From positions 1-60,796 of the forward strand of contig JAKVBU010000019.1 of the NCBI GenBank assembly GCA_022446885.1: 60,796 nt of DNA, written 5' to 3'. Shown here one piece after another: positions 8,989 through 24,078 of the stretch (its first letter is position 1; each line of letters starts with the position of its first letter). The stretch is from Phycisphaerales bacterium. Its GTDB lineage: Bacteria; Planctomycetota; Phycisphaerae; Phycisphaerales; SM1A02. The position numbers were made by a program, and so were the translations under genes. The notes below the pieces were generated by a model. It was given only the letters and a program-made list of their open reading frames with translations, did not search any database and was not told the origin of the DNA.

Positions 8989-9066
8989 GGCACGCAGAAT
9001 AGTGGTGGACGTGCGCGATCGCCCAACTGGGGCGGCGGGTGATCAGGTGATCAGGCTATCAAGACC

Positions 9067-9651
9067 TCAGCGACGTCGGCGACGTGCGATCAGGCACAGG
9101 CCCACCAGCGCCAAAGTGCCTGGAGCCGGAACCAGCGATTGGTATCGCAGGATCAGCCGCCCGCTGAGGAATGCGCCTGCCGGCTGGCCGGATCCGTCGT
9201 CCCAGTTGCTGGCAACCAGCAGGTCGACGGTACCTTCAGCATCACTGAACAATTCCAAGAGATCGACTGCCAATGAGCCGCTGGTGGGGCCCACCACGCC
9301 ACTCTCGAACGTGTCGGGGAAGGGCTGGGTGAGTACATCGAAAGCGGTGCCGGCTGAGTCAACGGCTCTGAATCCCATCCAAGCTTCGTTGGCCCAGTTG
9401 GGAACACCGATGTTGTTGTAGGTTTCGATGACAACATCTTCCCAGGTGAGCTCGACCAGTCGCGCTGGGCCGATGCCCAGATCTGCGATCACCTGAGGCG
9501 AGCCGGGAAGGTAGAGGTCCTCATTGAACTCGTAGATGACCTCTTCCAACAGGCCCGGGTTGCTGGCTGTGGCCGGTGCGCTCAACAGCGTGATGGCCGC
9601 CATGGCGGCCAACAGCGTGAAGGGGCGTGAAATGGAATTGAGGGCACTCAT
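9067..9651 (-). CDS. Secreted protein with PEP-CTERM-like sorting tail
   Basis: A 194-residue protein with a Sec signal (TLLAAMAAITLLSAPATAS) and a C-terminal sorting signal VPAPGTLALVGLCLIARRRRR-like: a VP-x-P motif, a hydrophobic stretch and an Arg cluster, as in exosortase substrates. The central part is a beta-rich domain of unknown role. The promoter region carries TAGACT 12 nt before ATG, inside a 16-nt block shared with the choice-of-anchor-B gene with one mismatch. No exosortase lies in the window. Confidence 0.8.
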   Translation of the reverse strand: MSALNSISRPFTLLAAMAAITLLSAPATASNPGLLEEVIYEFNEDLYLPGSPQVIADLGIGPARLVELTWEDVVIETYNNIGVPNWANEAWMGFRAVDSAGTAFDVLTQPFPDTFESGVVGPTSGSLAVDLLELFSDAEGTVDLLVASNWDDGSGQPAGAFLSGRLILRYQSLVPAPGTLALVGLCLIARRRRR

Positions 9652-9656
9652 CTCTT

Positions 9657-9672
9657 CAGTCAGAGTCTACCT
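9657..9672 (-). promoter_or_regulatory. Upstream element AGGTAGACTCTGACTG
   Basis: Read on the minus strand, AGGTAGACTCTGACTG lies just before the PEP-CTERM gene and differs by one base from the block at 14430-14445 before the choice-of-anchor-B gene. The inner TAGACT is a candidate -10 box. Confidence 0.4.
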
Positions 9673-9703
9673 TTGGGGGGGCTGCAGACGAAGCCCAAGA
9701 GGC

Positions 9704-10159
9704 TCAACGCAGACCAAGCGTCTCGACGATGGTCCGCGCCGCTTCATTGGGCAGACAGCCGAAGCCCCAGAGTTCACGAAGATCAGTCTGGTTGGTGCCG
9801 GTGGCCTGCATGACTTCGCCCTCGGCAAGGTCGTAACGCGTCTCAGTCTGCCGCAGCAGGCTGTAGACGTGTTCACACCACGCAGGGAAGGGCGTTGATA
9901 GGGGGCCGGTACCAGGTCTGTAGGCTGCCATTGAAGGGAATCCGTGTCTCCAAGACCCACTACGCAAGGGCATCGGCACAGGTGTGCACGAAACCGGGAT
10001 TTTTTCGGCCTCTGCCGGAAGCAAGGCCGAATCGAGCCCAACGAGGGCCCATGTCAGGGGCATCGGCTCGGTTTTGGGGTGCCATGAGGGAGATGGGGCA
10101 AAACGACGCCTCTGGGGGCTTCTGTGCCAGTCCAACTCGACAGGCCTAATCGGTTGCAT
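9704..10159 (-). CDS. Hypothetical protein downstream of the DCC1/LMF fusion
   Basis: A 151-residue frame whose start overlaps the end of the DCC1/LMF gene by 14 nt. The C-terminal third has ordinary coding character (acidic helix with TRYDLAEGEVMQ and NQTDLRELWGFG, then a conserved-looking ending), while the first ~35 residues are Pro/Arg-rich and may be untranslated; an internal ATG (MPLTWALVG) is a plausible start. No domain is recognised. The tight spacing suggests co-transcription with the fusion gene. Confidence 0.5.
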   Translation of the reverse strand: MQPIRPVELDWHRSPQRRRFAPSPSWHPKTEPMPLTWALVGLDSALLPAEAEKIPVSCTPVPMPLRSGSWRHGFPSMAAYRPGTGPLSTPFPAWCEHVYSLLRQTETRYDLAEGEVMQATGTNQTDLRELWGFGCLPNEAARTIVETLGLR

Positions 10160-12083
10160 CCATCCGGATAGGTGGTGATTGCATGATCAGCCGCCGTGTC
10201 CACCACTGATCGCCCGTGTCGGCCGAGTCTGCAGGTGCGTACTGCCAGAGCGACCATCTGAGCCAATTGCCCGCGGTCAGATGGGGTTGATCTGGCGCCA
10301 GGAGGCTTCCAACGGAGGCCGATCGCCTGATGAGCGCCTCGGTCAGATCGGGCAGCACGATGTTGGTGCGGAATCGCTGCCAGGCCGTGGATGCGGTCAA
10401 TACGCCTGCGTCGTGCAGACGTTCGTATGCAAGGGCGTCAAACCACAGTTGCCAGTCGAGGCGAGGCATGCCCGGCTGGCAGAAGCGTGGGGCCTCATCG
10501 AGCGGGCCCGGCTTGTACCTGAACCGCACCGGGGTCCAGTGTTCGTTGTCAGTACTGACCTCAAGCGTTACCTCGGGGCGCGTGGTTGTCATCGTCGCAA
10601 ACAGCCCGTAGTTGGATGCTACGTGCCAAGGCCACCACATCCCGGACCACTGTGCAACCAGATTGGGCATGGCGGAGGCGTGCCAGTACCAACGAGGCAG
10701 GCTGATCGAGCAGATGAAGATGCCTGCGGCCAGCACAAGACATCGCCGCCACCATCGAGGACGGGATGTGACACCCACCTTGAACAGATGTCGCGCCGCC
10801 CGTGGCCACAAGAGCAGCAGCATTGCGTCGTCGATGGCAGCAAGGGCCAACACGATGGTGAGCCAGTTGAAGAACCCGTAGTTGCCCGTTGCCGCGATGC
10901 CAAGTTGCAGGGCGATGATTGAACATGCTGCAATGAGCCTTGGGATGCGACCCAGCAGCAACAGCCACGGCAGCCACAACTCGGCGACAAACATCGCTTC
11001 ACAGGCCAGTTTCAGTACCCATTCGGGCAGCGCCATCGCCCACCAGGCGGGCCACCATGGCAAGGGCTGCGTCCAATAGTGGTAGGACAAGGCCGTGCAG
11101 TCAGCCCAGACGGGGTCTTGCGAACTGAGTTTCACCAACCCCGACAGCACCATGAGCTTGATGAGCAAGAGCGTGAGGAGCAGGCGTATGAACGCCGATG
11201 GCCGCGAGGCGCGAGGGCTGTGCAGCCAGACAACCCCGGGCGAGAAGCACACAGCCAGAAGGCCCGCTTCCAGCAAGAGCATGTCCCACGGGTATCCGGT
11301 GAAGACGCCTGCTGCATTCACCAGTGACAGGTACAGCGCCCAGCACAGGGCGGCGCTCAGAAGGGGAACCAGGCCCACAACCATGCTCAGGGCGGCAACC
11401 ACGCCGATGATCCAGGTCGCCTGCAACAGTCCATCGCCGCCGAACCACTGCAGCGTCGGAAGGTTCATGAAGCCCATGTCCGGGGCTCGGGCCGTGAACG
11501 TCTCGATCAAACCGGTAATGGGCTGCAGCCCATCTGCGCCGATGAGCCCGTCAAGTTGATGCCCCAGCGATAGGAACGCGATCAGCCAGATCAGTCCCAT
11601 GCAGCGAAGAAACACTCGGCGTGTCAACTGCCAGGTGTCCGGAATCTCCACCTTGCCCAGCAGGGCGCGAGAGGCTCGATCACACCCTCCGCGGTGTCGG
11701 GCAACCCAGTTGTAGACGGCTTCGCTCACTCTGGCGACGCCCGGTACGTGGCGATAGAGCACAAGTGGCCAGCCTCTTACGCCACCGCGAGCGAGGATGG
11801 TGCAAACGGCTTCAGCCCCACGCACATGCGTACCGTCAGGCTCAACGAGATGGATGGCGCTGGCAAGCGCCTCACGTTCGATGGAGATTGATCCCGGCCG
11901 TTTTTGCAGAGTGGTCCACGCAAAGGTGTCGCCGGTCAGGGCATACCAGCGGCTGGCCCACCGTCGGCAGAAGGTGCACTCGCCGTCCCAGACAACCAAC
12001 GGACGATCGCCCGGTGTCTGGGAAATTGGGGGACCACTTCCGCAGCCCTTGGCACATCCGGTACATCCGCCGCAGGAGGACAT
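10146..12083 (-). CDS. Fusion of DCC1-like thiol oxidoreductase (DUF393) with lipase maturation factor-like membrane protein
   Basis: A 645-residue two-part protein. Residues 1-20 form a Cys-rich lead (SSCGGCTGCAKGCGSG). Residues ~28-140 match the DCC1/YuxK family (VVWDGECTFCRRWASRW, with a C-x-x-C). From ~155 there are about ten hydrophobic segments, and the soluble C-terminus (EVSTDNEHWTPVRFRYKPG, PRLDWQLWFDAL) matches lipase maturation factor (LMF1) proteins. LMF1 supports folding or disulfide formation of secreted lipases in eukaryotes; bacterial members are uncharacterised. The fusion suggests redox-assisted folding of exported proteins (inference). It lies 79 nt downstream of the choice-of-anchor-B gene, with a strong hairpin between. 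Confidence 0.85.
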   Translation of the reverse strand: MSSCGGCTGCAKGCGSGPPISQTPGDRPLVVWDGECTFCRRWASRWYALTGDTFAWTTLQKRPGSISIEREALASAIHLVEPDGTHVRGAEAVCTILARGGVRGWPLVLYRHVPGVARVSEAVYNWVARHRGGCDRASRALLGKVEIPDTWQLTRRVFLRCMGLIWLIAFLSLGHQLDGLIGADGLQPITGLIETFTARAPDMGFMNLPTLQWFGGDGLLQATWIIGVVAALSMVVGLVPLLSAALCWALYLSLVNAAGVFTGYPWDMLLLEAGLLAVCFSPGVVWLHSPRASRPSAFIRLLLTLLLIKLMVLSGLVKLSSQDPVWADCTALSYHYWTQPLPWWPAWWAMALPEWVLKLACEAMFVAELWLPWLLLLGRIPRLIAACSIIALQLGIAATGNYGFFNWLTIVLALAAIDDAMLLLLWPRAARHLFKVGVTSRPRWWRRCLVLAAGIFICSISLPRWYWHASAMPNLVAQWSGMWWPWHVASNYGLFATMTTTRPEVTLEVSTDNEHWTPVRFRYKPGPLDEAPRFCQPGMPRLDWQLWFDALAYERLHDAGVLTASTAWQRFRTNIVLPDLTEALIRRSASVGSLLAPDQPHLTAGNWLRWSLWQYAPADSADTGDQWWTRRLIMQSPPIRMDATD

Positions 12084-12107
12084 GGGTCCCCAGCCTAGTT
12101 CATGTGA

Positions 12108-12137
12108 CAGCCCGCCGCGGCGAACCGCGACGGGCTG
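12108..12137 (-). terminator. Strong hairpin, 13-bp stem with TTCG loop
   Basis: Thirteen pairs (one G-T) flank a four-base loop that reads TTCG on the minus strand. It follows the stop of the choice-of-anchor-B gene and precedes the DCC1/LMF gene. No clear T-tract follows on the minus strand, so it may be a pause, RNA-stabilising or partial terminator element. Confidence 0.5.
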
Positions 12138-12161
12138 AGATTGTTTGATTGAGCGATGGAA

Positions 12162-14402
12162 TCAGCAGTCGCTGCCGAATGCGCCCAGCACGGCGAGAAT
12201 GTCTTCGACGCTGTACTCATCACCGAACCCGGCGACGGCAGTGAGGATGTCATTGACGTCAACCATACCGTTTCCATCGAGGTCGCCAGGGCAGGCCTCG
12301 TCATCACACTCGATGCTGCTGATCGTGATGGCATCAACAGCAGCCTCAACCACAGATCCGGCATTCAGATCGCCGACGGTGAATCGAAGCCGAGTCATGT
12401 CGCTTGGTGAGTATCCGCTGATTCCGGCAAGATCAAACTCGACCTCGTACCAGCCACCACTGGCTTCGGGGCCGGAGGGGCCGACTTGTTCCAATTGCGT
12501 CCACGTGGCACCACCGTCGTCGGAAATGTCCACGTACATGCTGTCCTCAGATGGGGATGCCCCATAGGTGTTGTCCAGCCAGCGAGCGTAGGAGAGCACG
12601 CCGCCCGCTGCCGCGTCGATCGAGGGCGATGTAAGCACGGTTGTGCCGCCATCGACATCGCTGTTGCAACCGCTGGCCGACGAATTGTCGGTCAGGGCGC
12701 AGGCGCCCGAGCCGTCGAAGTCTGATGGGGGATCGCCACGACCGCAGTCGACAGGCACACCCACGCCCCACTGGCCGTCGGTCGCGTCGCCGGAGGTTTG
12801 CCACCCGGCGGAATTCTGGAAGTCCACGTCGAGAGCGGTGTCCATGCTGTCGGCGGAGACCGCTGACCCGTGGCCAATGGCGGAGGCGTCTCCGGTGTCG
12901 GCCGCGACTCTGGCGTGGTACTCGACAACATCTCCGCAGTGCGAGGCGCCAAAGAGGGCTCGAAGCACAGTCGGGTTGCCTTGACTGATGACCTGCAGTT
13001 GTGACTGGTGCGTGCCGTTGGAGTCTGCCCAACTGAGAACGGACTCGTCTGCATCGAGGGCGACGCCCTCGGCGAAGGTCACGCGGATGTCGAACGAGTC
13101 GCCACCTGCAGGAGTGAGCTGATCAGGCGTTTCGCCGAGCAGTTCGACAGACATGGCCGGCGGCTCGAGCCGCCACACGAAGAGGCCTCGCTCCAGATCG
13201 GAGCCGATCAACGTGCCGCTGGGGAAGTAGGGATAGACCGACCAGAGCCCATTGAAGGCGGCGCTGTCGCCTTCGGGGTAGGTGTCGAACCAACTCACCT
13301 GAACCGGGGAGAGGCGGTTTGAGATGTCGAAGATCCGCACGCCACTCTGGTAGTTGGCCTGATACATCATGTTGCCGTTGATGTACAGATTGTGATCCAC
13401 CGAATTCATGCCCGAAGTGCAGGTGCCGGCTTGGAACGGGGCGGCCAGATTCGAAACGTCGATGATCCGAGTCGTGGTTTGCGAGCCTGTGTTCTGCTCG
13501 TCGAGTTCATCGTTGAGATAGAAGTACTGCAGGTCTTCTGAGAGCCAGCCCTGATGGCTGTAGTTGTTGTTGCTGTGCTGCAGGTGCGACAGTTCAACGA
13601 TGTTGCTCTTGTTTGTGACGTCGAGAATCGTCAGGCCGGTCTCACCCCAGCCGTTGTTGTATCCGGCGCAGCAGAAGGCGATTTCTCGCCCGGCCCACTG
13701 GCCACCATCATCGGGCCATGTGATCACCTGGGCATCGTGCACGTAGCGGTCGGTCCAGTCTGCCACGTGTGGGGGATTGACCGGATTCGCATTGAGGTCG
13801 TAGATTCGCAGCCCGTTGCCGCCACCGCCACATCGGTAGAGGAACCCGCTGTCTTCATTGAGCACGATGTTGTGCGTTGCAGCGGTTCCACCACTTGTGA
13901 CGGTGCCCTCCAGTGTGACCAGCCCGAGATCGACGTTCGTCAGGTTGATCACCTGAATGCCACTGCCACCTTCACTGACAGCATAGGCACGATGCTCGAA
14001 CACCTTGATGTCACGCCACAAAGAGTTGGGGCCGTTGATTTCGGCGACGATGCTGGCGTTGTCCGGATCGGTGATCTCAACCACGGCTGTTCCCGCTTCG
14101 TGGGTGAACAGGGCGTACTCACGCCCGCTCGGTGAGGTGTATCCCCAGCAGTCGGAACCGGTGGAGGGATTGCCCTGAAACTCGCCCAGGGGAATCCACG
14201 AGACCATCTCGATCTCGCCGTCAGCGTCGAACATGCCACGGGGCATCGGGGGATCCACGGCCTTGCGCCACGCCGTTGTGCCGATGGGAGACTGGCGATC
14301 CTGCAACTTGGGGTCGTCCTCGTGAGCCATGCCCACAGAGGTCAGAATCGCCAATGCTGCCGTAAGGCTGACAGCCATCTCTAGAGGACAAGCCTGCTTC
14401 AT
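12162..14402 (-). CDS. Choice-of-anchor B family exported protein with dockerin-like tail
   Basis: A 746-residue protein with a signal peptide (ending near SVGMAHED). Residues ~60-420 form an LVIVD/propeller region with repeated statements such as AVVEITDPDN, IQVINLTNVD, LRIYDLNANP, LTILDVTNKS, RIIDVSNLAA and VRIFDISNRL, typical of choice-of-anchor-B proteins. A jelly-roll-like region with DDGGATWTQLEQVG follows, then the C-terminal tail CPGDLDGNGMVDVNDILTAV with a second half-repeat, a dockerin-like two-helix module. Extracellular or surface location is expected. GGAG lies about 10 nt before ATG. It sits 89 nt downstream of the di-haem peroxidase gene, so it may belong to that unit. Confidence 0.88.
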   Translation of the reverse strand: MKQACPLEMAVSLTAALAILTSVGMAHEDDPKLQDRQSPIGTTAWRKAVDPPMPRGMFDADGEIEMVSWIPLGEFQGNPSTGSDCWGYTSPSGREYALFTHEAGTAVVEITDPDNASIVAEINGPNSLWRDIKVFEHRAYAVSEGGSGIQVINLTNVDLGLVTLEGTVTSGGTAATHNIVLNEDSGFLYRCGGGGNGLRIYDLNANPVNPPHVADWTDRYVHDAQVITWPDDGGQWAGREIAFCCAGYNNGWGETGLTILDVTNKSNIVELSHLQHSNNNYSHQGWLSEDLQYFYLNDELDEQNTGSQTTTRIIDVSNLAAPFQAGTCTSGMNSVDHNLYINGNMMYQANYQSGVRIFDISNRLSPVQVSWFDTYPEGDSAAFNGLWSVYPYFPSGTLIGSDLERGLFVWRLEPPAMSVELLGETPDQLTPAGGDSFDIRVTFAEGVALDADESVLSWADSNGTHQSQLQVISQGNPTVLRALFGASHCGDVVEYHARVAADTGDASAIGHGSAVSADSMDTALDVDFQNSAGWQTSGDATDGQWGVGVPVDCGRGDPPSDFDGSGACALTDNSSASGCNSDVDGGTTVLTSPSIDAAAGGVLSYARWLDNTYGASPSEDSMYVDISDDGGATWTQLEQVGPSGPEASGGWYEVEFDLAGISGYSPSDMTRLRFTVGDLNAGSVVEAAVDAITISSIECDDEACPGDLDGNGMVDVNDILTAVAGFGDEYSVEDILAVLGAFGSDC

Positions 14403-14429
14403 TGTTGGGCATCTCCTTCACCCACTCCC

Positions 14430-14449
14430 CAGTCAGACTCTACCTGATG
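14430..14449 (-). promoter_or_regulatory. Candidate promoter/operator CATCAGGTAGAGTCTGACTG
   Basis: The minus-strand block contains TAGAGT as a possible -10 box 33 nt upstream of the choice-of-anchor-B start. Its left half (CATCAGGTAGAG) recurs before pyrC and, with one change, before the enolase-family gene; its right half recurs before the PEP-CTERM gene. Confidence 0.4.
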
Positions 14450-14490
14450 AATCGGCCTCGCCGAAGCCCAGATCGATGTTCGGGGCCCAT

Positions 14491-15705
14491 TCAGGTGGCT
14501 TTTTCGCCGCTTGCCGCGTCAGGGGCCCCATCTTCGAGGCTCTTCAGGAATGCCTCCAGCGCCTGCAGGTCTTCAGGGGGCAGATTCAATGGCTTCAGGA
14601 TCGTCTCCTGATGGTGATCGAATTGCACCTGCCCCTCGAGCGTGTTGTAGAAGTCGAGCACCTGAGCGATCGTCTCGAAGCGGCCATCATGCATGTAGGG
14701 GCCGGTGATCGAGACGTTTCGAAGGCTCGGTGTTCGCATCGCCCCCCAGTTACCCGGGGCGTCTACGGCATTGGCCGCTCGCCGGGCCGCTGGTGAGGTG
14801 GGATCATCGGACCACTTGCCGTTGAGTCGAAATGCGCTCGCACGCGCCTTTGCAAGCCCGCCTGCTCGGCCCAAATCTGCCGGTAGGAGGCCATCCTTGG
14901 GCGGCAGGCCCAGCGAGTGAAAGGCCCGGTCGGTCATCAATGGTCCCGCATGGCAGTTTCGACAGCCGGCCTCGCCCATGAAGAGCTGCAGGCCGCGAAT
15001 GGCAGGGGGCGAGAGAATGCCATCAGTCGATCGCCCCTCAGCTAACGCCGTTGCGAATCGATCGAATGGAGATGTGCCAGGTTGCAGTGTCCGCTCGAAG
15101 GCCGCGATCGACTTGCCGATGTTCACGAATGCGCCGGTCACGGCGTCGCGATCTGCGTCACTCATGCTGGCCCATGCGTCAGTTCCCGGCTTGGCGCCAT
15201 CGGGCACACCATCGAGGTCGGGCATTGGTCCGAAAAGTGTCTCGTACCGTGATCGGAGTTCAGGCATGGCCGCCAGCGTCTTGACCACATCGCCTCGTGA
15301 CGAATTGAACTCTGCTTCATGCTCAAAGGGGTGCAGCGCCTGGGCCCAGAGCGAGTCCGCTCGACCATCCCAAAAGAACCACCGTTGATGAGCCACGCCG
15401 GTCAGTTGCGGCGTATTGCGCGTGCCAACCCCCTCGCCCTTCGCAACCGGGAGCCCATCGGTGAACCCGCGATCAACCTTGTGGCAAGTCGCGCAGGAAA
15501 CGGTTCCGCTGCTGGAGAACACCGGCAACTTGAAGCACATGGCGCCGAGTTCGATCGCGGTGGGGTGGTCGGCAACTCGATTACTCGTGTCATCTGGAAG
15601 AGCCGGCACCGGACTCATGCGTGCGACGATCCGCCGCTCACGCTCGGTCAGGTCCGAACCCCCGTCGGTGACGCACAGGCAGCCGGCCAGAGCAAGCAGG
15701 ATCAT
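14491..15705 (-). CDS. Di-haem cytochrome c peroxidase / MauG-like lipoprotein
   Basis: A 404-residue protein with a lipobox-like start (LLALAGC). Two c-type haem motifs are seen, C71-A-T-C-H75 and C248-R-N-C-H252, with the family segments FWDGRADSLWAQALHPF, RTPSLRNV and GPYMHDGRF. This is the cytochrome c peroxidase/MauG/MbnH family: peroxide reduction or long-range oxidation of a protein substrate. The start overlaps the stop of the YtkA-like gene (ATGA). The tight pairing with a small exported protein resembles MauG- or MbnH-type systems, which act on a partner protein; a peroxidase role is equally possible from sequence. Confidence 0.92.
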   Translation of the reverse strand: MILLALAGCLCVTDGGSDLTERERRIVARMSPVPALPDDTSNRVADHPTAIELGAMCFKLPVFSSSGTVSCATCHKVDRGFTDGLPVAKGEGVGTRNTPQLTGVAHQRWFFWDGRADSLWAQALHPFEHEAEFNSSRGDVVKTLAAMPELRSRYETLFGPMPDLDGVPDGAKPGTDAWASMSDADRDAVTGAFVNIGKSIAAFERTLQPGTSPFDRFATALAEGRSTDGILSPPAIRGLQLFMGEAGCRNCHAGPLMTDRAFHSLGLPPKDGLLPADLGRAGGLAKARASAFRLNGKWSDDPTSPAARRAANAVDAPGNWGAMRTPSLRNVSITGPYMHDGRFETIAQVLDFYNTLEGQVQFDHHQETILKPLNLPPEDLQALEAFLKSLEDGAPDAASGEKAT

Positions 15706-16079
15706 TCCAGAATGACATCCGACTCGGCTCGGTGAACGACACCCTCTTCATCGGTGATGTTGAAGTGCACACGCCACAGACCCGGCATGTGGAAGAGCAT
15801 GTCGCTGGCCAACCAGGTGTCATGCGAGAGTTGTCTGACGTCACTCTTGTGCAGCATGCCGTGGCGATGGTCCGGCATGGTGGCATCGATGTCTACCGTT
15901 TTGGGGGCGGGCTCCACTCGGGCCCGAACCACGAAGTACTCATCCACCACGATGTCCTGCTGGGAAGCCGTGTCCCAATACACCGTGAAGGACTCGTCAT
16001 GTGTGCTCGCCTTGTGGCCACGCAGCGATGTCGTGCAGGCTGCGCACAGCAGAGGCAGAGTGAACAGGAGCGTCTTCAT
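15702..16079 (-). CDS. YtkA/FixH-like small lipoprotein
   Basis: A 125-residue protein with a lipobox signal (TLPLLCAAC). The mature part is one immunoglobulin-like beta domain with ATMPDHRHGMLHKSDVR and MLFHMPGLWRVHFNI, as in the YtkA-like family. The His-x-His-x-Met cluster (DHRHGM) could bind copper. Three tryptophans lie in YWD, DTWL and GLWRV. It overlaps its neighbours by 4 nt at both ends, between the NHL protein and the di-haem enzyme, and is thus a natural candidate partner or substrate for that enzyme (inference). Confidence 0.8.
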   Translation of the reverse strand: MKTLLFTLPLLCAACTTSLRGHKASTHDESFTVYWDTASQQDIVVDEYFVVRARVEPAPKTVDIDATMPDHRHGMLHKSDVRQLSHDTWLASDMLFHMPGLWRVHFNITDEEGVVHRAESDVILE

Positions 16080-17584
16080 GGCGAGGCCTTTCGCATAGAT
16101 GGCGTGTTCGCCGGCGTGTAGGCGCGGCCGGTTCCGAACGTCATCAACCAGTTGCCATTGGCGTCGAAAGCCTGCAGGCGGTGGTTGCCGTGATCCAGCA
16201 CGAGGATACGGCCATGATGGTCTACAAGCAGTTCGGATGCGTTCCAGAATTCGCCGTGGTTCGACCCGTGGGCACCGACAGTAATCGGTTCGTCGTGTTC
16301 GATGACCAGCGTGTCGTCTACGAGCCTCGCTTGCGAGCCGTCGGGCAGGATGGCCTCGCGGCGAAGTTCGGGTGACTGCACGGGCCCATCCTCGGGTGCC
16401 GTCGTGCGGAGGAGCCTCGCCGCATCGGGAGCAAACTTGGGCTTGTGGGTGGGGGGCAGGTCGAAGCGCCAGGCGTGGGTGCGGCCGTCAGCGGCATCAG
16501 TGACATGGCAGTGGACTGTGCCGTCCACTTGCTCCAATCTAATTTTAATCGGGCGCTGTACGCATCCGGGACCAGGCGTGTGGCTCCCGAAGGTGGTCAG
16601 GTGGATGGGCGTCGGCCGATCGATGTCGAGTACATGGAACTGCCGCTGTTCTGGTTCGTGCACGACCAGCACTCGGCCCTGCAACGCCATGCGCGGGCCA
16701 AAATGCGACTTGGGGCCGCCGGGCACTTCGAGGGCCCGCGGCCGAAGCGGTGGTCCGGGTACGAAGCCCTGCAGGCGTCTCTCGAAGGGTTCGGCCACAA
16801 CACAGCCCTCGTCGGTAAAGGCGACATCTTCCGGATAGTGGATTCGCCCCTCGCCTTCTCGGGGCTTGATGGCGTGCATGCCCCAATAATCGATGACTTC
16901 GCCCGTGTCGGCATCAAGGGCCTGGATCCGGTGATTCATGCGATCAGCTATCAGCAGAACGCCGTCTTGAACATCAAGCCCAGAAGGTTCAGCCATGCGG
17001 CCGGGCGTTCTCCCCCAACCGCCTGTTGTCCAGCGGTGGGCCCCGTCCGGGCCGATGGCGTGCACGAGGTGCGTGCCCTCATCAGCAATGTAGAGGTTTC
17101 CTGATTCGTCCATTGCGACGGATGAGGGCAGTAACAACTCAGTGCCGTTGATCTCGTCGTAGAGGCCCATGTTGCCACCAACCATGTCGAAGAGCAGAAC
17201 CCTGCGATTGCCCGTATCTGCGACAGCAATTCGATCGCCGTTTGAGGCAACATCGTCGGGATCGTGAAACTGGGTGAGACGGTTGCCGCTGGTGCCGAAC
17301 TCATGCTGGATGATGCCATCTGAATTCAGCACGAGTACGCGGGCACCTGGTCCGTTGAGCAGAATGATCCTTCCATCTGGAGTCACGTCTAGGGCGGAGG
17401 CCGCGTAGGGTAGATGGCCACGAAGCGCATCATCTTCACGAATGCCCCAGTTGATCACATGGTCACATGCGATGACGCCGCGTTCGGGGTGAAACGCGAC
17501 AGCCCTGCTGGGCAGACTCGACTCCGTCCAAGCGTACTGCCCCGGAATCTGGGTCAGCAGCGTCAGCATGAGCGAAAGAAGCAT
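16076..17584 (-). CDS. NHL-repeat beta-propeller protein (exported)
   Basis: A 502-residue protein with a hydrophobic N-terminus and several NHL repeats, for example FHDPDDVASNGDRIAVADTG, LPSSVAMDESGNLYIADEG, EPSGLDVQDGVLLIADRM and ASELLVDHHGRILVLDHGNH. Such propellers act as binding or scaffold surfaces; no catalytic residues are evident. Its position inside the redox unit, with a 4-nt overlap to the YtkA-like gene and 21 nt after the HMA gene, suggests it organises or recognises the other exported components. Confidence 0.88.
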   Translation of the reverse strand: MLLSLMLTLLTQIPGQYAWTESSLPSRAVAFHPERGVIACDHVINWGIREDDALRGHLPYAASALDVTPDGRIILLNGPGARVLVLNSDGIIQHEFGTSGNRLTQFHDPDDVASNGDRIAVADTGNRRVLLFDMVGGNMGLYDEINGTELLLPSSVAMDESGNLYIADEGTHLVHAIGPDGAHRWTTGGWGRTPGRMAEPSGLDVQDGVLLIADRMNHRIQALDADTGEVIDYWGMHAIKPREGEGRIHYPEDVAFTDEGCVVAEPFERRLQGFVPGPPLRPRALEVPGGPKSHFGPRMALQGRVLVVHEPEQRQFHVLDIDRPTPIHLTTFGSHTPGPGCVQRPIKIRLEQVDGTVHCHVTDAADGRTHAWRFDLPPTHKPKFAPDAARLLRTTAPEDGPVQSPELRREAILPDGSQARLVDDTLVIEHDEPITVGAHGSNHGEFWNASELLVDHHGRILVLDHGNHRLQAFDANGNWLMTFGTGRAYTPANTPSMRKASP

Positions 17585-17605
17585 GTGTCCGAGGGTGTGC
17601 CCGGA

Positions 17606-18025
17606 TCAGGCGTCAGAGGTCTCGTCGGATTCCACTGGGGCAGTTGAGTCTTCCACCGGAATCGGTTCCAGATCTCCAACCGTATAGCCCTGTTCACGGG
17701 CGGCCCGAATGGCGCAGTCCATGGCAGCGGCACTCTGGGCGTGGATCGTCGCGCTCTGATCGGCGTAGGACACAGCCACCGAGAACACGTCCGGGCAGGC
17801 GTTCATGGCCCGTTGAATCGATGCGGCGCAGCGATCGCAATGCATCCCTTCAACAGAGACCACCCCGGACATCTCGCGAAATGCGGCCGGTGTGTCGTCA
17901 GTGGATGCAGTTGAGGCGGCGTTATCCGGGTCGGACGAATTGCCGCAGCCGGTCAGAATGAGTGTGGCGGCCAAAAGGGTCAGGCGGAGCATTCGACGAT
18001 GATACAGGTCTGAAAGTGCCATCAT
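17606..18025 (-). CDS. Lipoprotein with heavy-metal-associated (HMA) domain
   Basis: A 139-residue protein with a lipobox (TLILTGC) and one HMA fold carrying the M-x-C-x-x-C site (GMHCDRCAASIQRAM), followed by SVAVSYADQSATIHA. HMA domains bind Cu(I) or other soft metals and hand them to partners. Membrane anchoring outside the cytoplasm is unusual for this fold and suggests a periplasmic metallochaperone or sensor. The start (ATGATG) overlaps the stop of the thioredoxin gene; a later ATG at 17992 would give a more typical signal length. The acidic C-terminal tail contains no cysteine. Confidence 0.85.
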   Translation of the reverse strand: MMALSDLYHRRMLRLTLLAATLILTGCGNSSDPDNAASTASTDDTPAAFREMSGVVSVEGMHCDRCAASIQRAMNACPDVFSVAVSYADQSATIHAQSAAAMDCAIRAAREQGYTVGDLEPIPVEDSTAPVESDETSDA

Positions 18026-18573
18026 GGATTCTGGTCGGCAAACGCCTTGAGGACAGGCTGCGGGCCGATGAACTTGCCACCTTTGTACGACCCTCGAATC
18101 ACCTCGTCATCTGGCCCCAGCCAGACCAGATTGGGAATGCCACGCTCGCCCCAGGAGTCCCGGATCTTGCCGGTGGCGGCGTAATCAACCGCCGAGAAGG
18201 GCATCTCGTAGTCTTTCATGTAGTCCCGCATGGCCTCTTCGGACTTGTCAGAAGACACCAGCAGTACAGCGACGTCGGCGTCGGGGTTCTCATCGACCCA
18301 CTTGACCAGCGTCGGCGTGAATGCCCGGCACGGCGGGCACCACTTTGCGCTGAAGTAGAGCAGCACGTTCTTCTTGCCCGCGATGTAGTCGCTGGGGCTT
18401 TGCTCACCGGCTGGTGTCGTGACGGTGCCGCCCAGCAAACTGAGCAGTTTGGCATGATGGCGAGCGGTGCTCTCGGAGGCACCCTTGGGCACAGCAGTCT
18501 GTTCTTCCTGCTTGGTCTGCTCGGCACAACCGGCAATCAGCAACGCGAATACGGCAAGAGCGAATCGAATCAT
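18022..18573 (-). CDS. Thioredoxin-fold lipoprotein (TlpA/nucleoredoxin-like)
   Basis: A 183-residue protein with a lipobox (ALLIAGC) and a thioredoxin domain with SAKWCPPCRAF, LLVSSDKS and GIPNLVWLGP. It is probably a membrane-anchored periplasmic reductant for haem or copper-site cysteines, as TlpA/ResA proteins are. It is first in the five-gene unit; a TAGGAT box (18580-18585, minus) stands 6 nt before its ATG. Its thioredoxin part is near-identical in motifs to that of the larger protein at 4482-5702, so the two are paralogues. Confidence 0.9.
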   Translation of the reverse strand: MIRFALAVFALLIAGCAEQTKQEEQTAVPKGASESTARHHAKLLSLLGGTVTTPAGEQSPSDYIAGKKNVLLYFSAKWCPPCRAFTPTLVKWVDENPDADVAVLLVSSDKSEEAMRDYMKDYEMPFSAVDYAATGKIRDSWGERGIPNLVWLGPDDEVIRGSYKGGKFIGPQPVLKAFADQNP

Positions 18574-18579
18574 GGCCCG

Positions 18580-18585
18580 ATCCTA
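18580..18585 (-). promoter_or_regulatory. -10-like TAGGAT at the head of the redox unit
   Basis: TAGGAT on the minus strand ends 6 nt before the start of the thioredoxin lipoprotein, placing the likely transcription start at the start codon and separating this unit from the DUF1501 gene, whose stop is only 9 nt further on. Confidence 0.45.
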
Positions 18586-18593
18586 GCGTGTTC

Positions 18594-19868
18594 TCAGGAG
18601 ATCACGTTGATCTTCTGGAATCGGTGTCGCAGAACGGGCATTGAGTCTGTCTTGAGCCAATCTTCGAGCACACTCGCGTAGACCTGACGGAAGTCGGTCG
18701 TATAACGGAGGTCTCCGTCGTCGAGGTTGACCAGATCGGGGTGCCGTCCGTGCACGCCCGGCCGCACCATGGGGCCGATCAGGTACAGCGGCGCTGCCGT
18801 GCCGTGATCGGTCCCGCCTGATCCGTTCTGGGCGACTCGGCGTCCAAACTCGGAGAACACCATTGTCAGCACACGTCCATCATTGCCCTGGGCCTTGAGG
18901 TCGTCTTGGAAGGCCTTGAGGCTGTCGCCAACCTGCCGCAGCAGGCGGCCGTGTTGCCCGGCTTGATTGGCGTGCGTGTCGAAGCCGCCCAGCGTGACGT
19001 AGTAGACGCGAGTGGGCAGCCCGGAACGAATCATCGCAGCGACCATGCGAAGTTGGTCCGAGAGATTGCCGCCGGGGAAGGTGGCCAAGGGAGACAGACT
19101 TGCGGCCTTGCGAACTTGGGCCGATGAGACTTGGGCGTCGAGCGCGGTTCTTCGAAGAAAGGCCAGGGTGTCCTGTGCCTGATCAGGGTCGCCCGGCACG
19201 GTCTTGTATGCCTGCTTGAGATCGTCGTCGATGTCCTCGCCGAGCCATCGGTACAGATCTGGGGTCTCGAACTGCACAGGTCGAGAGCGGCGACCTTCAA
19301 GTGCCAGCGGAGAGGTGCGCCCCAATGCGACGGACGCCTGTGGATCGGGAGTGCCTGAGCATGTGTTGTCGAAGTACCGTCCCAGCCACCCTTCGCTGCG
19401 GCCACCGGGATCTGCCGAGTGCCAGATGTCCATCGACGAGAAGTGCGACCGATTGGGGTTGGGATAGCCGGTGCCCTGCACGATTGCCGCGAGACCGTCG
19501 TCCATCAGGGAGCGCATGCCTTCGAACTCCGGGTGCAGCCCCAGTCCATCGGCCCCGCGTACCGGCAACCGAAGTGCGCCGTTCGTGGCGCCCGGCTGGC
19601 CGACGGCCAGATTTGGTCGAGCCCGGTAGTAGGCGTCCAGTCCGAATGGAACCACGGTGTTCAGCCCGTCATTGCCACCGCCCAATTGGACGACCACAAA
19701 CACTCGGTCTTGCGGCACACCCGCGATCGATGAGGTCATTGCGCCCAGTGGTGTGCAGACCCCTTGCGCTGTCTGTTGGAGGAAGATCGGTGCGGTTCCG
19801 GCCAGAGACGCGAATGCTGTGCCTCGTTGCAGGAAGTGGCGTCGGCTCCAAGGTGTGGTGTTGGTCAT
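18594..19868 (-). CDS. DUF1501 family protein with Tat signal
   Basis: A 424-residue protein beginning with a twin-arginine signal (WSRRHFLQRGTAFASLAG). It has VFVVVQLGGGNDGLNTVVPF, SHFSSMDIWH, VYYVTLGGFDTHANQ and MVFSEFGRRVAQNGSGGTDHG, the hallmarks of DUF1501, a family related to sulfatase/phosphatase folds and abundant in planctomycetes. Export folded through Tat suggests a cofactor or metal. It follows DUF1800 by 12 nt, the usual partner pair. The function of the pair is not established. Confidence 0.93.
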   Translation of the reverse strand: MTNTTPWSRRHFLQRGTAFASLAGTAPIFLQQTAQGVCTPLGAMTSSIAGVPQDRVFVVVQLGGGNDGLNTVVPFGLDAYYRARPNLAVGQPGATNGALRLPVRGADGLGLHPEFEGMRSLMDDGLAAIVQGTGYPNPNRSHFSSMDIWHSADPGGRSEGWLGRYFDNTCSGTPDPQASVALGRTSPLALEGRRSRPVQFETPDLYRWLGEDIDDDLKQAYKTVPGDPDQAQDTLAFLRRTALDAQVSSAQVRKAASLSPLATFPGGNLSDQLRMVAAMIRSGLPTRVYYVTLGGFDTHANQAGQHGRLLRQVGDSLKAFQDDLKAQGNDGRVLTMVFSEFGRRVAQNGSGGTDHGTAAPLYLIGPMVRPGVHGRHPDLVNLDDGDLRYTTDFRQVYASVLEDWLKTDSMPVLRHRFQKINVIS

Positions 19869-19880
19869 GGCGACCTCGCT

Positions 19881-21365
19881 TCAGCAGAGTTGATATTCGG
19901 GGGCTGCGGTGATCAGGGCGATCAGCCGGGTGACAGTGGCGGCATCCATGTCCCGCCCACGAGCCAGATCGGCCCACTGGCCCAGTCGAGTCGAATCGGG
20001 CATGGTGCCCAGCAGGAATCGAGACAGATAGGTCGCTGCATCGGTGGGGCGATCTCGTTGGGGGATGTCCGGCAAGTGAGCGACCAGGCGCGACAGGTCG
20101 TGATCGAGTCCGCCACCGTCCCAAGGATTGCTGCCAGGCTCTCGGCCGGTCAACAGATACACCAGCGTGTTCTGTCTGGTGAACAGCGTGGATGTGTTGA
20201 TCCAGCCTGTGCCACCGTCCCATCCCTTCACGCTGGGTGGGGCGAAGAGCGACTGGCCCATGAACGTGCAGGCTTCCGCCAACCGTGTCAAGTTGCGTGC
20301 GGGCAGGTCCATCGAGCGACAGGCCTGCACCACCAGTTGTACCGGGCTCTTGACCATCATGCCCCGGCGGGTTGGGTGATAGAAGTGCTGCGATTTGAAC
20401 ACCTCTTCAAGTACAGGTCGAAGGTGCCAGTTGCGTCGCCGCAGTGTCTTGCCCATGGCGTTGACAACCGCCATCGACTTGTCGGTCGAAGCGTCAGCGT
20501 CGTCCACGAAGAACCGGTAGAGCTTCCAGCAGATCCAGGTGGAACTTGTGGGGCGGGTGAAGATCAGTTCCACAAAGTCGTCGGCGCCCCAATTGCCGCT
20601 GCGGCCGAAGATGGTCTTGGTGTCGTCATCATGATTGCGGGCGTTGAACGTGAAGTCGTCATCGCGGAACGTGAACCCCGTCAGGGCTCGGGCGCCTTCC
20701 TTGATGTCCTCTTCGGAATACCCGTTGCCTTCGCCCAGCGTGAAGAGTTCCATGAGTTCGCGGGCGAGGTTTTCGTTCGGCGCGCCCTTGCGATTCTGAT
20801 TGTTGTTCAGGTACTTGATCATCGCCGGGTCACGGATGATCCCGTGCACGAGCGTGTTCTTGAAGTTGCCCGCCGCGTTGTCGCGGAACATCTGATTCTG
20901 CTTGAGCAGGTGCCAAGAATCTTCCACCGCCCGATAGCCGGTGGCGAAGTGCCCGTGCCAGAAGAGTGTCAGCTTCTCCTGCAGCGGGCGCGATGTCTCG
21001 ATCATCCGCTTGAGCCACCATGCTCGGGCCTCAGCGATCTGGCGTCTGTCTTCGCGCTGGCGTTGCTGCCTGATCATGCGGGCCCGTTCCCGTGCGGCCT
21101 CGCTGTCGGACCGACGCATCATGCGGTACTCCTGCCGCTCCGCCTCGGTTGCCGGTCGCATGATGTCACTGCGGAAACCCGGATCGGGAACCGGGTCGGG
21201 CACTGCGGTCCAGTTCAGCACGTGGTCTACGGCCCCATCAAGTCCCATCTCAGTCAACGTCAGAACCTGCTCAGGCGTACCGCCGAATCCGGCACGCTGA
21301 AGCAGGTGGTGCGCTTCCCAATACCCAAAGTCGTCGTCTTTCAGCGGCTGAAGTGGGCGTGGCAT
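19881..21365 (-). CDS. DUF1800 family protein
   Basis: A 494-residue protein with the DUF1800 pattern: HHLLQRAGFGGTPEQV near the start, MTLFWHGHFA-like LTLFWHGHFATGYRA, NENLARELMELFTLGEG, YSEEDIKEGARALTGF and PPSVKGWDGGTGWINTS. No obvious signal peptide precedes the domain. It is the upstream partner of DUF1501. A GGAG lies 10 nt before ATG and a TAGACT box at 21420-21425 (minus), so this pair probably starts its own transcript 96 nt after the CopA gene. Confidence 0.93.
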   Translation of the reverse strand: MPRPLQPLKDDDFGYWEAHHLLQRAGFGGTPEQVLTLTEMGLDGAVDHVLNWTAVPDPVPDPGFRSDIMRPATEAERQEYRMMRRSDSEAARERARMIRQQRQREDRRQIAEARAWWLKRMIETSRPLQEKLTLFWHGHFATGYRAVEDSWHLLKQNQMFRDNAAGNFKNTLVHGIIRDPAMIKYLNNNQNRKGAPNENLARELMELFTLGEGNGYSEEDIKEGARALTGFTFRDDDFTFNARNHDDDTKTIFGRSGNWGADDFVELIFTRPTSSTWICWKLYRFFVDDADASTDKSMAVVNAMGKTLRRRNWHLRPVLEEVFKSQHFYHPTRRGMMVKSPVQLVVQACRSMDLPARNLTRLAEACTFMGQSLFAPPSVKGWDGGTGWINTSTLFTRQNTLVYLLTGREPGSNPWDGGGLDHDLSRLVAHLPDIPQRDRPTDAATYLSRFLLGTMPDSTRLGQWADLARGRDMDAATVTRLIALITAAPEYQLC

Positions 21366-21460
21366 GCACGAACTCCTGACTCGATGACCTGATCGCTCCC
21401 GAGGGCGGCGATCTGCCAGAGTCTACGATTCATCCGGGTTGGTGCATCCCCGGATCGCCG

Positions 21461-23614
21461 TCAACCGCCCAGACGCCGCTTCAGAGAGGCGCTCAGCCGC
21501 ACCGTATTGCCTATCACGCTGACATCGCTCACCGCCATGGCACCGGCGGCGATGACCGGCCCCCAAGGGCCCAGCAGCCCGAATGCCGCCACCGGAATCA
21601 TGGCGGTGTTGTAGACGAAGGCCAAGAACAGGTTCTGTTTGATGGCACGCAGCGTGCTGCGCGAAATCTTCACGAGCAGGGGGACGGCCGAGGGGCGGTG
21701 GGCCGGAATCACGACGTCGGCGGCATCGATCGCCACATTGGTGCCCGAGCCCACGGCCATGCCCACGGTGGCGCCCGCCAGGGCGGCAGCGTCGTTGAGC
21801 CCGTCGCCAACCATGATGGTCGTCTCGGATCGCTCCGTGACCCAATTCGCTTTCGACTCAGGCGTTTGACCTGCGATGACTGCGTCTCTTGGCAGGCCGA
21901 TGTCGTCAGCGATGGCTTCTGCGGCGTCCTGTCGATCGCCCGAGAGCATGGTGACTTGAAGTCCCATTTCCGTCAGGCGCTGAACCGTCTGGGCGGCGTC
22001 TGGAAGGGGGGTGTCGCGCACGTCAATTCGACCGATCTCCACACCACCATGCCGCACGACGCAAGCAGCTCGTGGGTCGCGCATCACCTCAACTGGCTTC
22101 CCCTGCAGTGTCGCCTGCACGCCCTGCCCCGGCACGGCCAGAAAGTCGTCTACCGCTTCGGGCGTGATGCCTCTCTGGTGTGCCTCCGCCAGCACGGCTC
22201 GGGCGACGGGATGCTCGCTGGGCGCTTCGGCGGCGGCGGCGATGCGAACCACGTCGTCTTCGCTCGATCCCTCTTCCGCGATCACCGTCGTGACACTCGG
22301 CTCTCCCTTGGTGAGCGTGCCGGTCTTGTCGAAAATCACTCGCTCAACGGACGCCGCATGTTCCAGCGCCTCGGCAGACTTGATCAGGATGCCGCGGCGC
22401 CCTGACTCACCTGTGCCCACCATGATGGCCATGGGCGTCGCCAGCCCAAGCGCACACGGGCAGGAGATGATCAGAACGGTCACCGCCGAGATGATGCCGG
22501 TTCGGAAGGGGGCCCAGTCGTCGGTCACGCCCGCGAGGATCGACCATCCGATCACTGTGCACACGGCGACCGCGAGCACGATGGGTACGAAGATCGAACT
22601 CACCTTGTCGGTGAGCCTCTGGATCGAGGCCTTGGAACCCATTGTGTTTGAAACGAGTTCGGTGATGCGAGCCACTGTTGAATCAGCTCCACTTGCCGTC
22701 GCCTCGATGATCAGGCGGCCGACGGTATTGAGCGAACCGCTTACGACAGGATCTCCCACGCCTCTCGCCACTGGCTCCGACTCGCCTGTGATGAGTGACT
22801 CATCGATTTCAGATGCCCCCTCCAACACGGTTCCGTCCACCGGGAGTCGGCCCCCGGGCCGAACGACAAGATGATCGCCCGGAGAGATCTGATCGAGCTC
22901 CACGACTTCCGTTGCGCCGTCATCGAGCCGCCGCTCGGCGGTATCGGGTTGCAGTTCGAGCAGTTCTCGAATGGCCGAGCCGGCGCGGCGTGAAGACCTT
23001 GCCTCAAACCAGTGCCCCAACGAGATCAGGCCGAACAGCACCGATGCTTCGGTGAAGTACATGGGCTGCCCGGTCTCGATCTGCATTCGCTCCAGTACGA
23101 AGAGCACCACCGAGTAGACGTACGCCGTGCCCGCTCCGATGCTGATGAGTGTGTCCATGTTGGTCGTGCGCCGCTTGGCCGCGGCCCAGGCCGAGGTGAA
23201 GAACCCCGGGCCGACCAGCACAGTCACAATCGTTCCCGCAGCCAACTGCACCCATTGCAACCAGAGCAGGTCTTCGCCCAGCGTCCAGTTGAGCACCGCA
23301 GTGGGCACCCAGATACCAAGGCCGATCGCAGCTCGGCGGGCCCAGCGTCGCTCCTTGGCGATTGCAGCTGCTTCTCGGTCTCCTTGACGGGCCGGGGCCA
23401 CCTGATCGGCCGGCATTGCAGGGAAGCCTGCGTCCGTCACGATGCTCGCCGCCGTAGCCTGATCGATGGTGCCTGTCACGGTCACTGTGGCCCCCGGGAC
23501 GTTCACAGAGACATCCTCAACGCCGTCATGGCGCATCAGGGCCGTCGTGATCGACCCGGCGCAGCTGGCACAACTCATGTCGGGAGCGGAGAGGCGAAAT
23601 GAGGGGGCGGTCAT
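21461..23614 (-). CDS. copA: CopA-type heavy-metal P1B ATPase
   Basis: About 717 residues, an inner-membrane pump for Cu(I) or a similar soft metal. Seen: an N-terminal HMA domain with C15-A-S-C18, TGES at about 276, the metal-transport CPC at 385-387 (SCPCALGL), the phosphorylated D429 in DKTGTLT, the SEHP motif and GDGLND at 603-608. The TM7 Y-N pair is present; the TM8 segment reads MAVSDVSV, so the second Ser of the common MxxSS is Asp. I placed the start at 23614 (TAPSFRLSAPDMSC) because the 43 residues upstream are Arg/Pro-rich and not family-like. It is divergent from the small exported protein at 23698. Confidence 0.92.
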   Translation of the reverse strand: MTAPSFRLSAPDMSCASCAGSITTALMRHDGVEDVSVNVPGATVTVTGTIDQATAASIVTDAGFPAMPADQVAPARQGDREAAAIAKERRWARRAAIGLGIWVPTAVLNWTLGEDLLWLQWVQLAAGTIVTVLVGPGFFTSAWAAAKRRTTNMDTLISIGAGTAYVYSVVLFVLERMQIETGQPMYFTEASVLFGLISLGHWFEARSSRRAGSAIRELLELQPDTAERRLDDGATEVVELDQISPGDHLVVRPGGRLPVDGTVLEGASEIDESLITGESEPVARGVGDPVVSGSLNTVGRLIIEATASGADSTVARITELVSNTMGSKASIQRLTDKVSSIFVPIVLAVAVCTVIGWSILAGVTDDWAPFRTGIISAVTVLIISCPCALGLATPMAIMVGTGESGRRGILIKSAEALEHAASVERVIFDKTGTLTKGEPSVTTVIAEEGSSEDDVVRIAAAAEAPSEHPVARAVLAEAHQRGITPEAVDDFLAVPGQGVQATLQGKPVEVMRDPRAACVVRHGGVEIGRIDVRDTPLPDAAQTVQRLTEMGLQVTMLSGDRQDAAEAIADDIGLPRDAVIAGQTPESKANWVTERSETTIMVGDGLNDAAALAGATVGMAVGSGTNVAIDAADVVIPAHRPSAVPLLVKISRSTLRAIKQNLFLAFVYNTAMIPVAAFGLLGPWGPVIAAGAMAVSDVSVIGNTVRLSASLKRRLGG

Positions 23615-23680
23615 GGCTGTTTTTACCCTCACAGGGCGCTCCGAGGCAGGTTTGGGCGATGGCCCTGCCAATGCTGGTGC

Positions 23681-23686
23681 TAGACT
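23681..23686 (+). promoter_or_regulatory. -10-like TAGACT
   Basis: TAGACT on the plus strand lies 11 nt upstream of the ATG at 23698 with no Shine-Dalgarno between, consistent with a very short or absent leader. Confidence 0.4.
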
Positions 23687-23697
23687 ATCGCTTCGCC

Positions 23698-23985: not shown

Positions 23986-24078
23986 GCACGCTTCAGTTCA
24001 CAGGCCCGCTGCATCAGTGCGGGCATCACCAGCACAGCACCCCCGTACGAATACAACTTCTCTCCTGGAGGCCACGTC

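Follow-up and report, generated by a model that had tools for sequence, protein, structure and literature searches.

Here we describe a gene pair, encoding a YtkA-like lipoprotein and a MauG-type di-haem enzyme, in a 60,796-nucleotide stretch of a Phycisphaerales bacterium genome (assembly GCA_022446885.1, contig JAKVBU010000019.1; hereafter, the window). This pair is the tightest part of an evolutionarily kept core, which comprises an NHL β-propeller, the YtkA-like lipoprotein, the di-haem enzyme and a choice-of-anchor-B protein. Our judgement is evenly balanced on whether the two proteins constitute a copper-protein/MauG-like maturation pair, in which complex formation and copper supply would go together with oxidative finishing of a site on the partner. 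A narrower version is put forward tentatively: alongside MbnP/MbnH and MopE-CorA/SACCP-CorB, the pair may be an unnamed one that writes a protein-derived copper site (for example, Trp- or His-based) into the YtkA-type domain, with Trp120 of the enzyme as a hole relay and, in planctomycetes, the NHL propeller in the active complex. A sequence-only reading of the window had placed the pair in a five-gene redox/metal unit (thioredoxin, HMA, NHL, YtkA-like, di-haem enzyme). Its theme of copper/MauG-type maturation is supported here, as is its doubt that any named system has this set. The four core genes are as follows.

16076–17584, minus strand: NHL β-propeller (Pfam E 9.1e-21), with relatives fused to a YtkA-like domain in 13 other loci.
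15702–16079, minus strand: YtkA-like lipoprotein with MPxHxHGM ... HMPGxW (PF13115 at E 0.05 only), the proposed copper-binding partner of the di-haem enzyme.
14491–15705, minus strand: MauG-type di-haem enzyme (CCP_MauG, Pfam E 2.8e-39) with two CxxCH motifs and a lipoprotein-like N-terminus.
12162–14402, minus strand: choice-of-anchor-B (LVIVD) protein (TIGR04312), modelled as a seven-bladed propeller with C-terminal β domains and a dockerin-like tail; fourth core gene and candidate client.

Within a sample of 148 planctomycete genomes, 30 carry a YtkA-like protein, 28 the di-haem enzyme (E ≤ 1e-80) and 30 a full-length choice-of-anchor-B protein; a limited number of candidates was scored per genome (27, 7 and 12 in three scans), so each of these presences is to be read as at least that number. 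All 28 genomes with the enzyme also carry the YtkA-like protein (Fisher p 3e-28, for genomes that are not independent of one another). The YtkA-like gene lies directly upstream on the same strand at 35 of the 38 places where the enzyme occurs, and the enzyme gene lies directly downstream at 35 of the 40 places where the YtkA-like gene occurs. Both YtkA-carrying genomes for which no enzyme was listed (G248 and G281) prove to have one when the locus is read. Some pairs adjoin a YHYH protein, an alternative neighbour (genomes G235, G202 and G296; loci L143 6204–9185, L146 15679–18998 and L160 7527–10629), identified as PF14240 in L143 and L146 and by profile in L160.

The pair also occurs outside the phylum. 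A tblastn search of 72,556 plasmids with the window enzyme returned 248 records; 11 of the 12 listed were read. In five of these (Sinorhizobium, Gemmatirosa, Polaromonas, Cereibacter and Photobacterium) a YtkA-like gene with the MPxHxHG motif lies directly upstream of the enzyme gene; their hosts belong to Pseudomonadota and Gemmatimonadota, and the pair is thus found in three bacterial phyla. A tblastn search with the Gemmatirosa YtkA-like protein retrieved exactly the same five records. The window YtkA-like protein scores 14.7 bits against PF13115, below the gathering cut-off of 25.9, and the five plasmid homologues score 26.1–64.4 bits, all above it; weak by Pfam alone, the YtkA assignment holds through these relatives. 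The Cereibacter homologue is annotated 'FixH family', and the paired enzymes are labelled 'cytochrome c peroxidase' where annotated. No YtkA-like gene was found within 3 kb of the weaker enzyme relatives of Burkholderia, Hymenobacter, Novosphingobium, Tritonibacter and Rhizobium. The Trichormus plasmid enzyme, which is an MbnH above cut-off, adjoins an 'MbnP family copper-binding protein' and has no YtkA-like gene within 3 kb. On the Polaromonas plasmid pPNAP03 (L172, 5021–5869, plus strand), a DUF3703 domain is fused to the YtkA-like domain upstream of the enzyme gene.

The paired enzymes form a clade. A tree of 42 enzymes, in which several branches are long and the inner order is unsure, places the 35 YtkA-paired enzymes on one side of a 100/98 branch and the 7 unpaired ones on the other. 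Trp120, in the motif DGRxDxLW, is present in all 35 paired enzymes of the tree and in none of the 7 unpaired. Across a larger table (loci L051–L130 and L138–L180, which may hold one species twice), Trp120 is found in 95 of 95 YtkA-paired rows, one more having a gap there, and in 3 of 11 unpaired rows (L157, L166 and L167, all absent from the tree). Trp120 marks the clade, not every pairing, and was rejected as a strict marker of pairing on account of those three rows. The eight unpaired rows that lack it have Glu or Lys at this position and lower family-profile scores than L157, L166 and L167; the top three aligned solved peroxidases have Lys or Ala. The unpaired enzymes L166 (9622–11022, plus strand) and L167 (783–2261, minus strand) come from one genome, G214, which also holds paired copies; a Kelch/galactose-oxidase-like E-set protein adjoins the L166 enzyme on the opposite strand.

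A second residue, Tyr353, is conserved in 69 of 69 enzymes and aligns to position 294 of the MauG chain, which we take to be the Tyr that serves as the axial ligand of the second MauG haem. This column is Tyr in all 35 paired rows of the tree and also in 6 of the 7 unpaired enzymes, so that it is a mark of MauG-like enzymes in general and not of the pair. In classical bacterial cytochrome c peroxidases, Met is the axial ligand of the high-potential haem; a Rhizobium enzyme annotated as cytochrome-c peroxidase has Met in this column, and the YtkA-paired enzymes, by alignment, have Tyr instead. By alignment only, then, the enzyme has the axial Tyr of MauG; by family profile it falls outside the named classes. 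Against the MauG family (TIGR03791, cut-off 443.85) the window enzyme scores 127.4 bits and six paired relatives 120.7–181.6; against MbnH (TIGR04039, cut-off 362.85) it scores 130.4 bits, with the Trichormus MbnH as a control at 559; and the window enzyme and the six relatives are also below the cut-off of the His-Xaa-Ser MauG-like family. None of the enzyme's neighbours matched MbnP (TIGR04052) in a scan of 10 cluster genes at E ≤ 0.01, with 25 of 30 families seen for CopA.

These residues bear on the strongest rival explanation, which we regard as fairly unlikely: that the di-haem enzyme is a periplasmic peroxidase, the YtkA-like copper protein its electron donor and the propellers scaffolds. 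Azurin-type proteins feed bacterial cytochrome c peroxidases with electrons, and the solved structures closest to the window enzyme by profile are di-haem peroxidases (1iqc, E 5e-47). Tight pairing and fusions would suit a donor and its acceptor as well as an enzyme and its substrate, and Trp120 could be an electron entry point. Against this, the paired enzymes have the MauG-type Tyr where the Rhizobium enzyme has Met, and MauG-type enzymes are poor peroxidases. Furthermore, YtkA-like domains are implicated in copper delivery rather than in electron transfer (PMC13344008).

The YtkA-like partner has a conserved set of residues. M68, P69, H71, H73, G74, M75, H97, M98, G100 and W102 are present in 75 of 75 planctomycete loci, and the plasmid relatives keep MPxHxHG, M98, G100 and W102. 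A profile of the family matches PDB 9ll2, 'Copper resistance protein', at E 7.4e-07. Two tryptophans were considered and dropped: W102 is conserved but family-wide, and W89, as a modification site, is conserved in 19 family rows and not across 76 rows. In Bacillus subtilis, YtkA-domain proteins are implicated in CuA assembly, where YtkA/CtaK is thought to act with Sco (PMC13344008). This favours another explanation, which we consider very unlikely, namely that the genes supply copper chaperones to a haem-copper oxidase and that the di-haem enzyme has no relation to the substrate. TlpA-type and HMA proteins, both encoded nearby, fit copper handling too. However, no oxidase or Sco gene is present among the 10 cluster genes scanned, and CuA assembly would leave the close pairing of the YtkA-like and di-haem genes unexplained.

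Genomes in GTDB were scanned with a profile of the NHL protein. We kept 80 loci from the 100 relatives found; the source titles either name planctomycetes or are unspecific, and the isolate Poly30 is among them. Of the 80 loci, 75 have a YtkA-like gene, 69 the di-haem enzyme and 60 choice-of-anchor-B; in many of the others the sequence is limited by a contig end. Where at least 8 kb was available from the NHL start, all four genes are present in 47 of 55 loci (choice-of-anchor-B accepted on either strand), which supports the guess of the sequence-only reading that the latter gene is part of the cluster. In the NHL protein, H237, H249 and H294 are conserved in 81 of 81 sequences and Y250 in 80 of 81. 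Reference rows left out of the alignments number 4 of 107 in one case (short or partial) and 2 of 56 in a second (L082 and L092, both long enough). Three genomes of the phylum sample (G235, G243 and G267) have the pair and no NHL match at E ≤ 1e-20; in a fourth, G229, the NHL protein is matched partially on a different contig, and a long open reading frame weakly similar to NHL adjoins the pair.

Fusions occur on both sides of the YtkA-like domain. The NHL and YtkA-like proteins are encoded in one open reading frame in 11 of the 80 loci and also in L048 and L162 (13 loci), and the YtkA-like and di-haem proteins in one locus, L153; these sequences suggest contact between the fused partners. An AlphaFold2 model of one NHL–YtkA fusion is confident over nearly its whole length (predicted local distance difference test score 91.9, predicted template modelling (TM) score 0.92), and suggests a defined domain contact. 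Foldseek returned low TM values for this fusion, probably from misregistered repeats, and the VIA-align rows mainly cover residues 258–546. The close pairing, the fusions on both sides and the shared clade suggest a complex in which the di-haem enzyme has the YtkA-like domain as its direct partner.

Several observations weigh against a copper/MauG-like maturation pair. No biochemistry of any member was found in the open-access literature searched. The YtkA-like gene lacks a detected enzyme at 5 of its 40 places; two of these (G248 and G281) are resolved as described above, one falls at a contig end, which leaves two. No enzyme gene lies nearby in four NHL loci that have space for one (L066, L071, L092 and L104), and three enzymes with Trp120 lack an adjoining YtkA-like gene, one at a contig end (L157) and two true exceptions (L166 and L167). 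Most relatives are metagenome-assembled genomes, so that any single fusion could be an assembly error. Copper binding by the YtkA-like protein would follow from a motif and a distant profile match; within that motif region, the five plasmid relatives have N, S, T or Q in place of the planctomycete H97 and L in place of M75, and W102 is a feature of the YtkA family at large, with a Trp also in 9ll2. Finally, four genomes of one genus carry a choice-of-anchor-B protein with no YtkA-like match and no NHL or di-haem relative at E ≤ 1e-20.

This last point bears on a version that follows the sequence-only reading, in which the genes would together reduce, load and oxidatively mature the choice-of-anchor-B propeller at a site in its central channel. 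The window protein is a firm family member (TIGR04312, 326.6 bits against a curated cut-off of 100), and the gene order kept in the 47 loci speaks for this version. In the phylum sample, a full-length copy co-occurs with the YtkA-like protein in 26 of 30 genomes, within 4.5 kb in 22; each is present alone in 4 genomes and neither in 114. In the model, the innermost strands of the seven blades start, in one register, with W86, W129, H177, H222, H283, H337 and W387, and this ring of four His and three Trp resembles a metal-plus-Trp cavity. However, the ring is intact in all three aligned copies from the four genomes without an enzyme relative at E ≤ 1e-20, and was rejected as proof of MauG-type maturation. 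The pair also exists without a full-length copy in G229, G235, G243 and G267 (weaker LVIVD-type proteins lie near the pair in G243 and G267), and in the five plasmid loci, a search with the same profiles detected no copy within 6 kb of the pair. These observations speak against choice-of-anchor-B as an obligate substrate, and maturation of this propeller as the purpose of the set seems distinctly unlikely. Substrate candidates, in our order of preference, would be the YtkA-like domain, the NHL propeller and choice-of-anchor-B.

By fold, choice-of-anchor-B is about as close to WD40 propellers as to the Sphingobium TCM1 phosphotriesterase; against the latter (5hrm), which we take to be a seven-bladed propeller with a metal site, the match has Z 30.4 over 328 residues at 2.9 Å and 16% identity, tied in Z with WD40 folds. 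5hrm is not among the sequence-profile matches of the protein. The C-terminal part (about residues 411–751; window 12162–13200) has further copies on at least four contigs elsewhere in this genome (C12, C15, C16 and C87) and looks like a shared surface-sorting region. No paper on the function of planctomycete NHL and choice-of-anchor-B propellers was found in the open-access literature searched.

The core is embedded in a larger same-strand cluster, which extends upstream through DUF1501, DUF1800 and CopA and downstream through choice-of-anchor-B to a DCC1/LMF1 protein; secA is divergent, beyond CopA. Its remaining members are listed here.

21461–23743, minus strand: CopA-type copper P-ATPase (TIGR01511, 521 bits, above the curated cut-off of 397), the likely copper supply; 95-nt gap to DUF1800, which it adjoins in 18 of 20 family loci.
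19881–21365, minus strand: DUF1800 protein (Pfam E 2.9e-111), 12 nt upstream of DUF1501.
18594–19868, minus strand: DUF1501 protein (Pfam E 6.6e-27), 20 nt upstream of TlpA.
18022–18573, minus strand: TlpA/ResA-like thioredoxin lipoprotein (Thioredoxin_8/AhpC-TSA, Pfam E 1.6e-14), an accessory found only in this genome.
17606–18025, minus strand: HMA lipoprotein with CxxC (Pfam E 4.3e-10; start at 18025 or 17992), a patchy accessory.
10146–12083, minus strand: fusion protein that joins a DCC1-type thiol-disulfide domain to a membrane protein of the lipase maturation factor type (LMF1; Pfam E 1.1e-13 and 4.3e-41), a downstream member in the family.

We searched 181 genomes of the bacterial family with the NHL protein (168 have some NHL match) and read 20 loci around strong matches; over-long or fused open reading frames were left out of the conservation tables. 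CopA, DUF1800 and DUF1501 precede NHL–YtkA–di-haem in 18 of the 20, DCC1/LMF1 lies downstream in 16, and choice-of-anchor-B was detected in 19, the remaining locus being cut by a contig end. Two loci (L048 and L050) have, of the whole cluster, only the four core genes. The small HMA gene is present in 12 of the 20 loci. The TlpA gene is present in none (phmmer, window protein as query), and the two congeners, where just 25 and 21 nt separate DUF1501 from HMA, have no room for it; the thioredoxin is an addition seen only in this genome. The proposed five-gene order is therefore not kept in the family loci read, and the five-gene set was rejected as a natural unit, given the absence of TlpA, the patchy HMA gene and the extension of the cluster on both sides. 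Of the 80 wider loci, 52 extend far enough upstream of the core; 18 of these hold DUF1800 and DUF1501 and 17 hold CopA, in closer loci only. The 61 loci without DUF1800 have different neighbours outside the core (a divergent CitMHS_2 transporter, ThiG), which suggest no mechanism, and many clusters of open reading frames in these loci are antisense shadows; in 47 of the 61 a cluster of open reading frames, some of its members antisense shadows, lies upstream of and divergent from NHL, the scanned member being a CitMHS_2 citrate-type transporter. In L061, a reprolysin-like metalloprotease with a dockerin-like tail (7134–9740, plus strand) is inserted between DUF1501 and NHL.

At finer scale, the five open reading frames of the sequence-only reading lie on the minus strand at the coordinates it gave. 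The 4-nt overlaps that it described are present at the NHL/YtkA and YtkA/di-haem junctions, as is the 21-nt gap between HMA and NHL; TlpA and HMA overlap only if HMA starts at the ATG at 18025, and a start at the ATG at 17992, just before the lipoprotein signal, gives a 29-nt gap instead. Of the export signals ascribed to all five products, inspection by eye finds a lipobox-type Cys in TlpA, HMA, the YtkA-like protein and the di-haem enzyme, and a short hydrophobic stretch at the NHL N-terminus. The choice-of-anchor-B gene starts 88 nt downstream of the di-haem gene, not 89 nt. The TAGGAT box said to head the unit is present (18580–18585, minus strand), but such hexamers are no commoner than chance in the window (3 seen on both strands, 6.2 expected) and no sigma-70-like site was found on the minus strand in 12000–24200; it was rejected as the unit promoter. 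As the box lies in the 20-nt gap behind DUF1501, itself 12 nt after DUF1800, the unit need not begin there. Two further genes lie near the cluster: a short open reading frame (9704–10159, minus strand) that matches nothing in Pfam, is conserved beside the cluster in the family over its last ~61 residues and probably has an internal true start, and a 3-hydroxyanthranilate dioxygenase (PF06052; 7020–7610, plus strand), whose closeness to a cluster with suspected tryptophan chemistry is probably coincidence.

The set resembles several described systems without coinciding with any of them, and no paper on the YtkA-like/di-haem pair itself was found in the open-access literature searched. MauG-like enzymes are common and mostly without known substrate. 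The axial Tyr likens the window enzyme to the MauG of methylamine dehydrogenase; it differs in its score below cut-off and in that no other mau family is present among the 10 scanned cluster genes. The window YtkA-like protein is a distant relative of the YtkA/CtaK copper proteins (PF13115), whose cut-off its five plasmid homologues pass; it differs in its own score, its MPxHxHG motif and its di-haem neighbour. The MbnP/MbnH pair corresponds to TIGR04052/TIGR04039 (GenProp0940; PMC3621798). Here the partner is YtkA-like rather than MbnP, and the enzyme is on the other side of the tree branch and below the MbnH cut-off. MopE/SACCP and CorA/CorB likewise place a surface copper protein beside a di-haem enzyme, suspected of making its kynurenine (PMC3912023); our partner is YtkA-like, no MopE/CorA-type family is found among the cluster gene matches, and kynurenine is suspected for theirs only. 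A parallel in composition is the mtoX–SCO1–MauG methanethiol oxidase cluster, which combines a copper enzyme (SBP56), a copper chaperone and a MauG-like enzyme, with a SCO1/MauG fusion beside a TlpA-like metallochaperone gene in Methylophaga (PMC5739008, PMC6548844). It differs in that the chaperone here is YtkA-like rather than SCO1 and the propellers are NHL and LVIVD; no SBP56/MtoX or SCO1/SenC family is among the Pfam matches of the scanned cluster genes. SBP56 of the mto cluster presumably has a propeller fold; an SBP56-like identity for choice-of-anchor-B is absent among the best 50 rows of Foldseek or VIA-align, which excludes nothing. By analogy with mtoX–SCO1–MauG, MbnP/MbnH and CorA/CorB, oxidative maturation of a copper-associated site appears the most likely activity.

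Gene content, pairing, fusions, clade and conserved residues are computed; the scheme that follows, from the complex and its copper to the oxidation, the part played by Trp120 and the substrate, is inferred. Outside the inner membrane, the YtkA-like lipoprotein probably assembles with the MauG-type di-haem enzyme into a complex. Copper would be brought across by CopA, together with the HMA lipoprotein where present, to be held or passed on by the YtkA-like domain, which in planctomycetes would be docked on the NHL propeller. Using its Tyr-ligated MauG-type haem, with the clade-marking Trp120 as hole relay, the di-haem enzyme would next complete, by oxidation, a copper site or a protein-derived one on the YtkA-like domain or the NHL propeller. 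The choice-of-anchor-B propeller may be a further planctomycete partner or end user, and in this genome the TlpA-like thioredoxin would have joined, much like the TlpA-like protein in the Methylophaga mto cluster.

With a recurrent partner, natural fusions and a marking residue, an unassigned group of enzymes, labelled 'cytochrome c peroxidase' where annotated, can be tested as one half of an enzyme/partner pair. YtkA-type copper proteins, considered until now in the context of oxidase assembly, would become linked to oxidative maturation, and the scheme would give the planctomycete NHL and choice-of-anchor-B propellers a first functional setting. The pair, in some loci fused with adjacent genes, thus appears to be a kit without a name that completes a metal site outside the cell.

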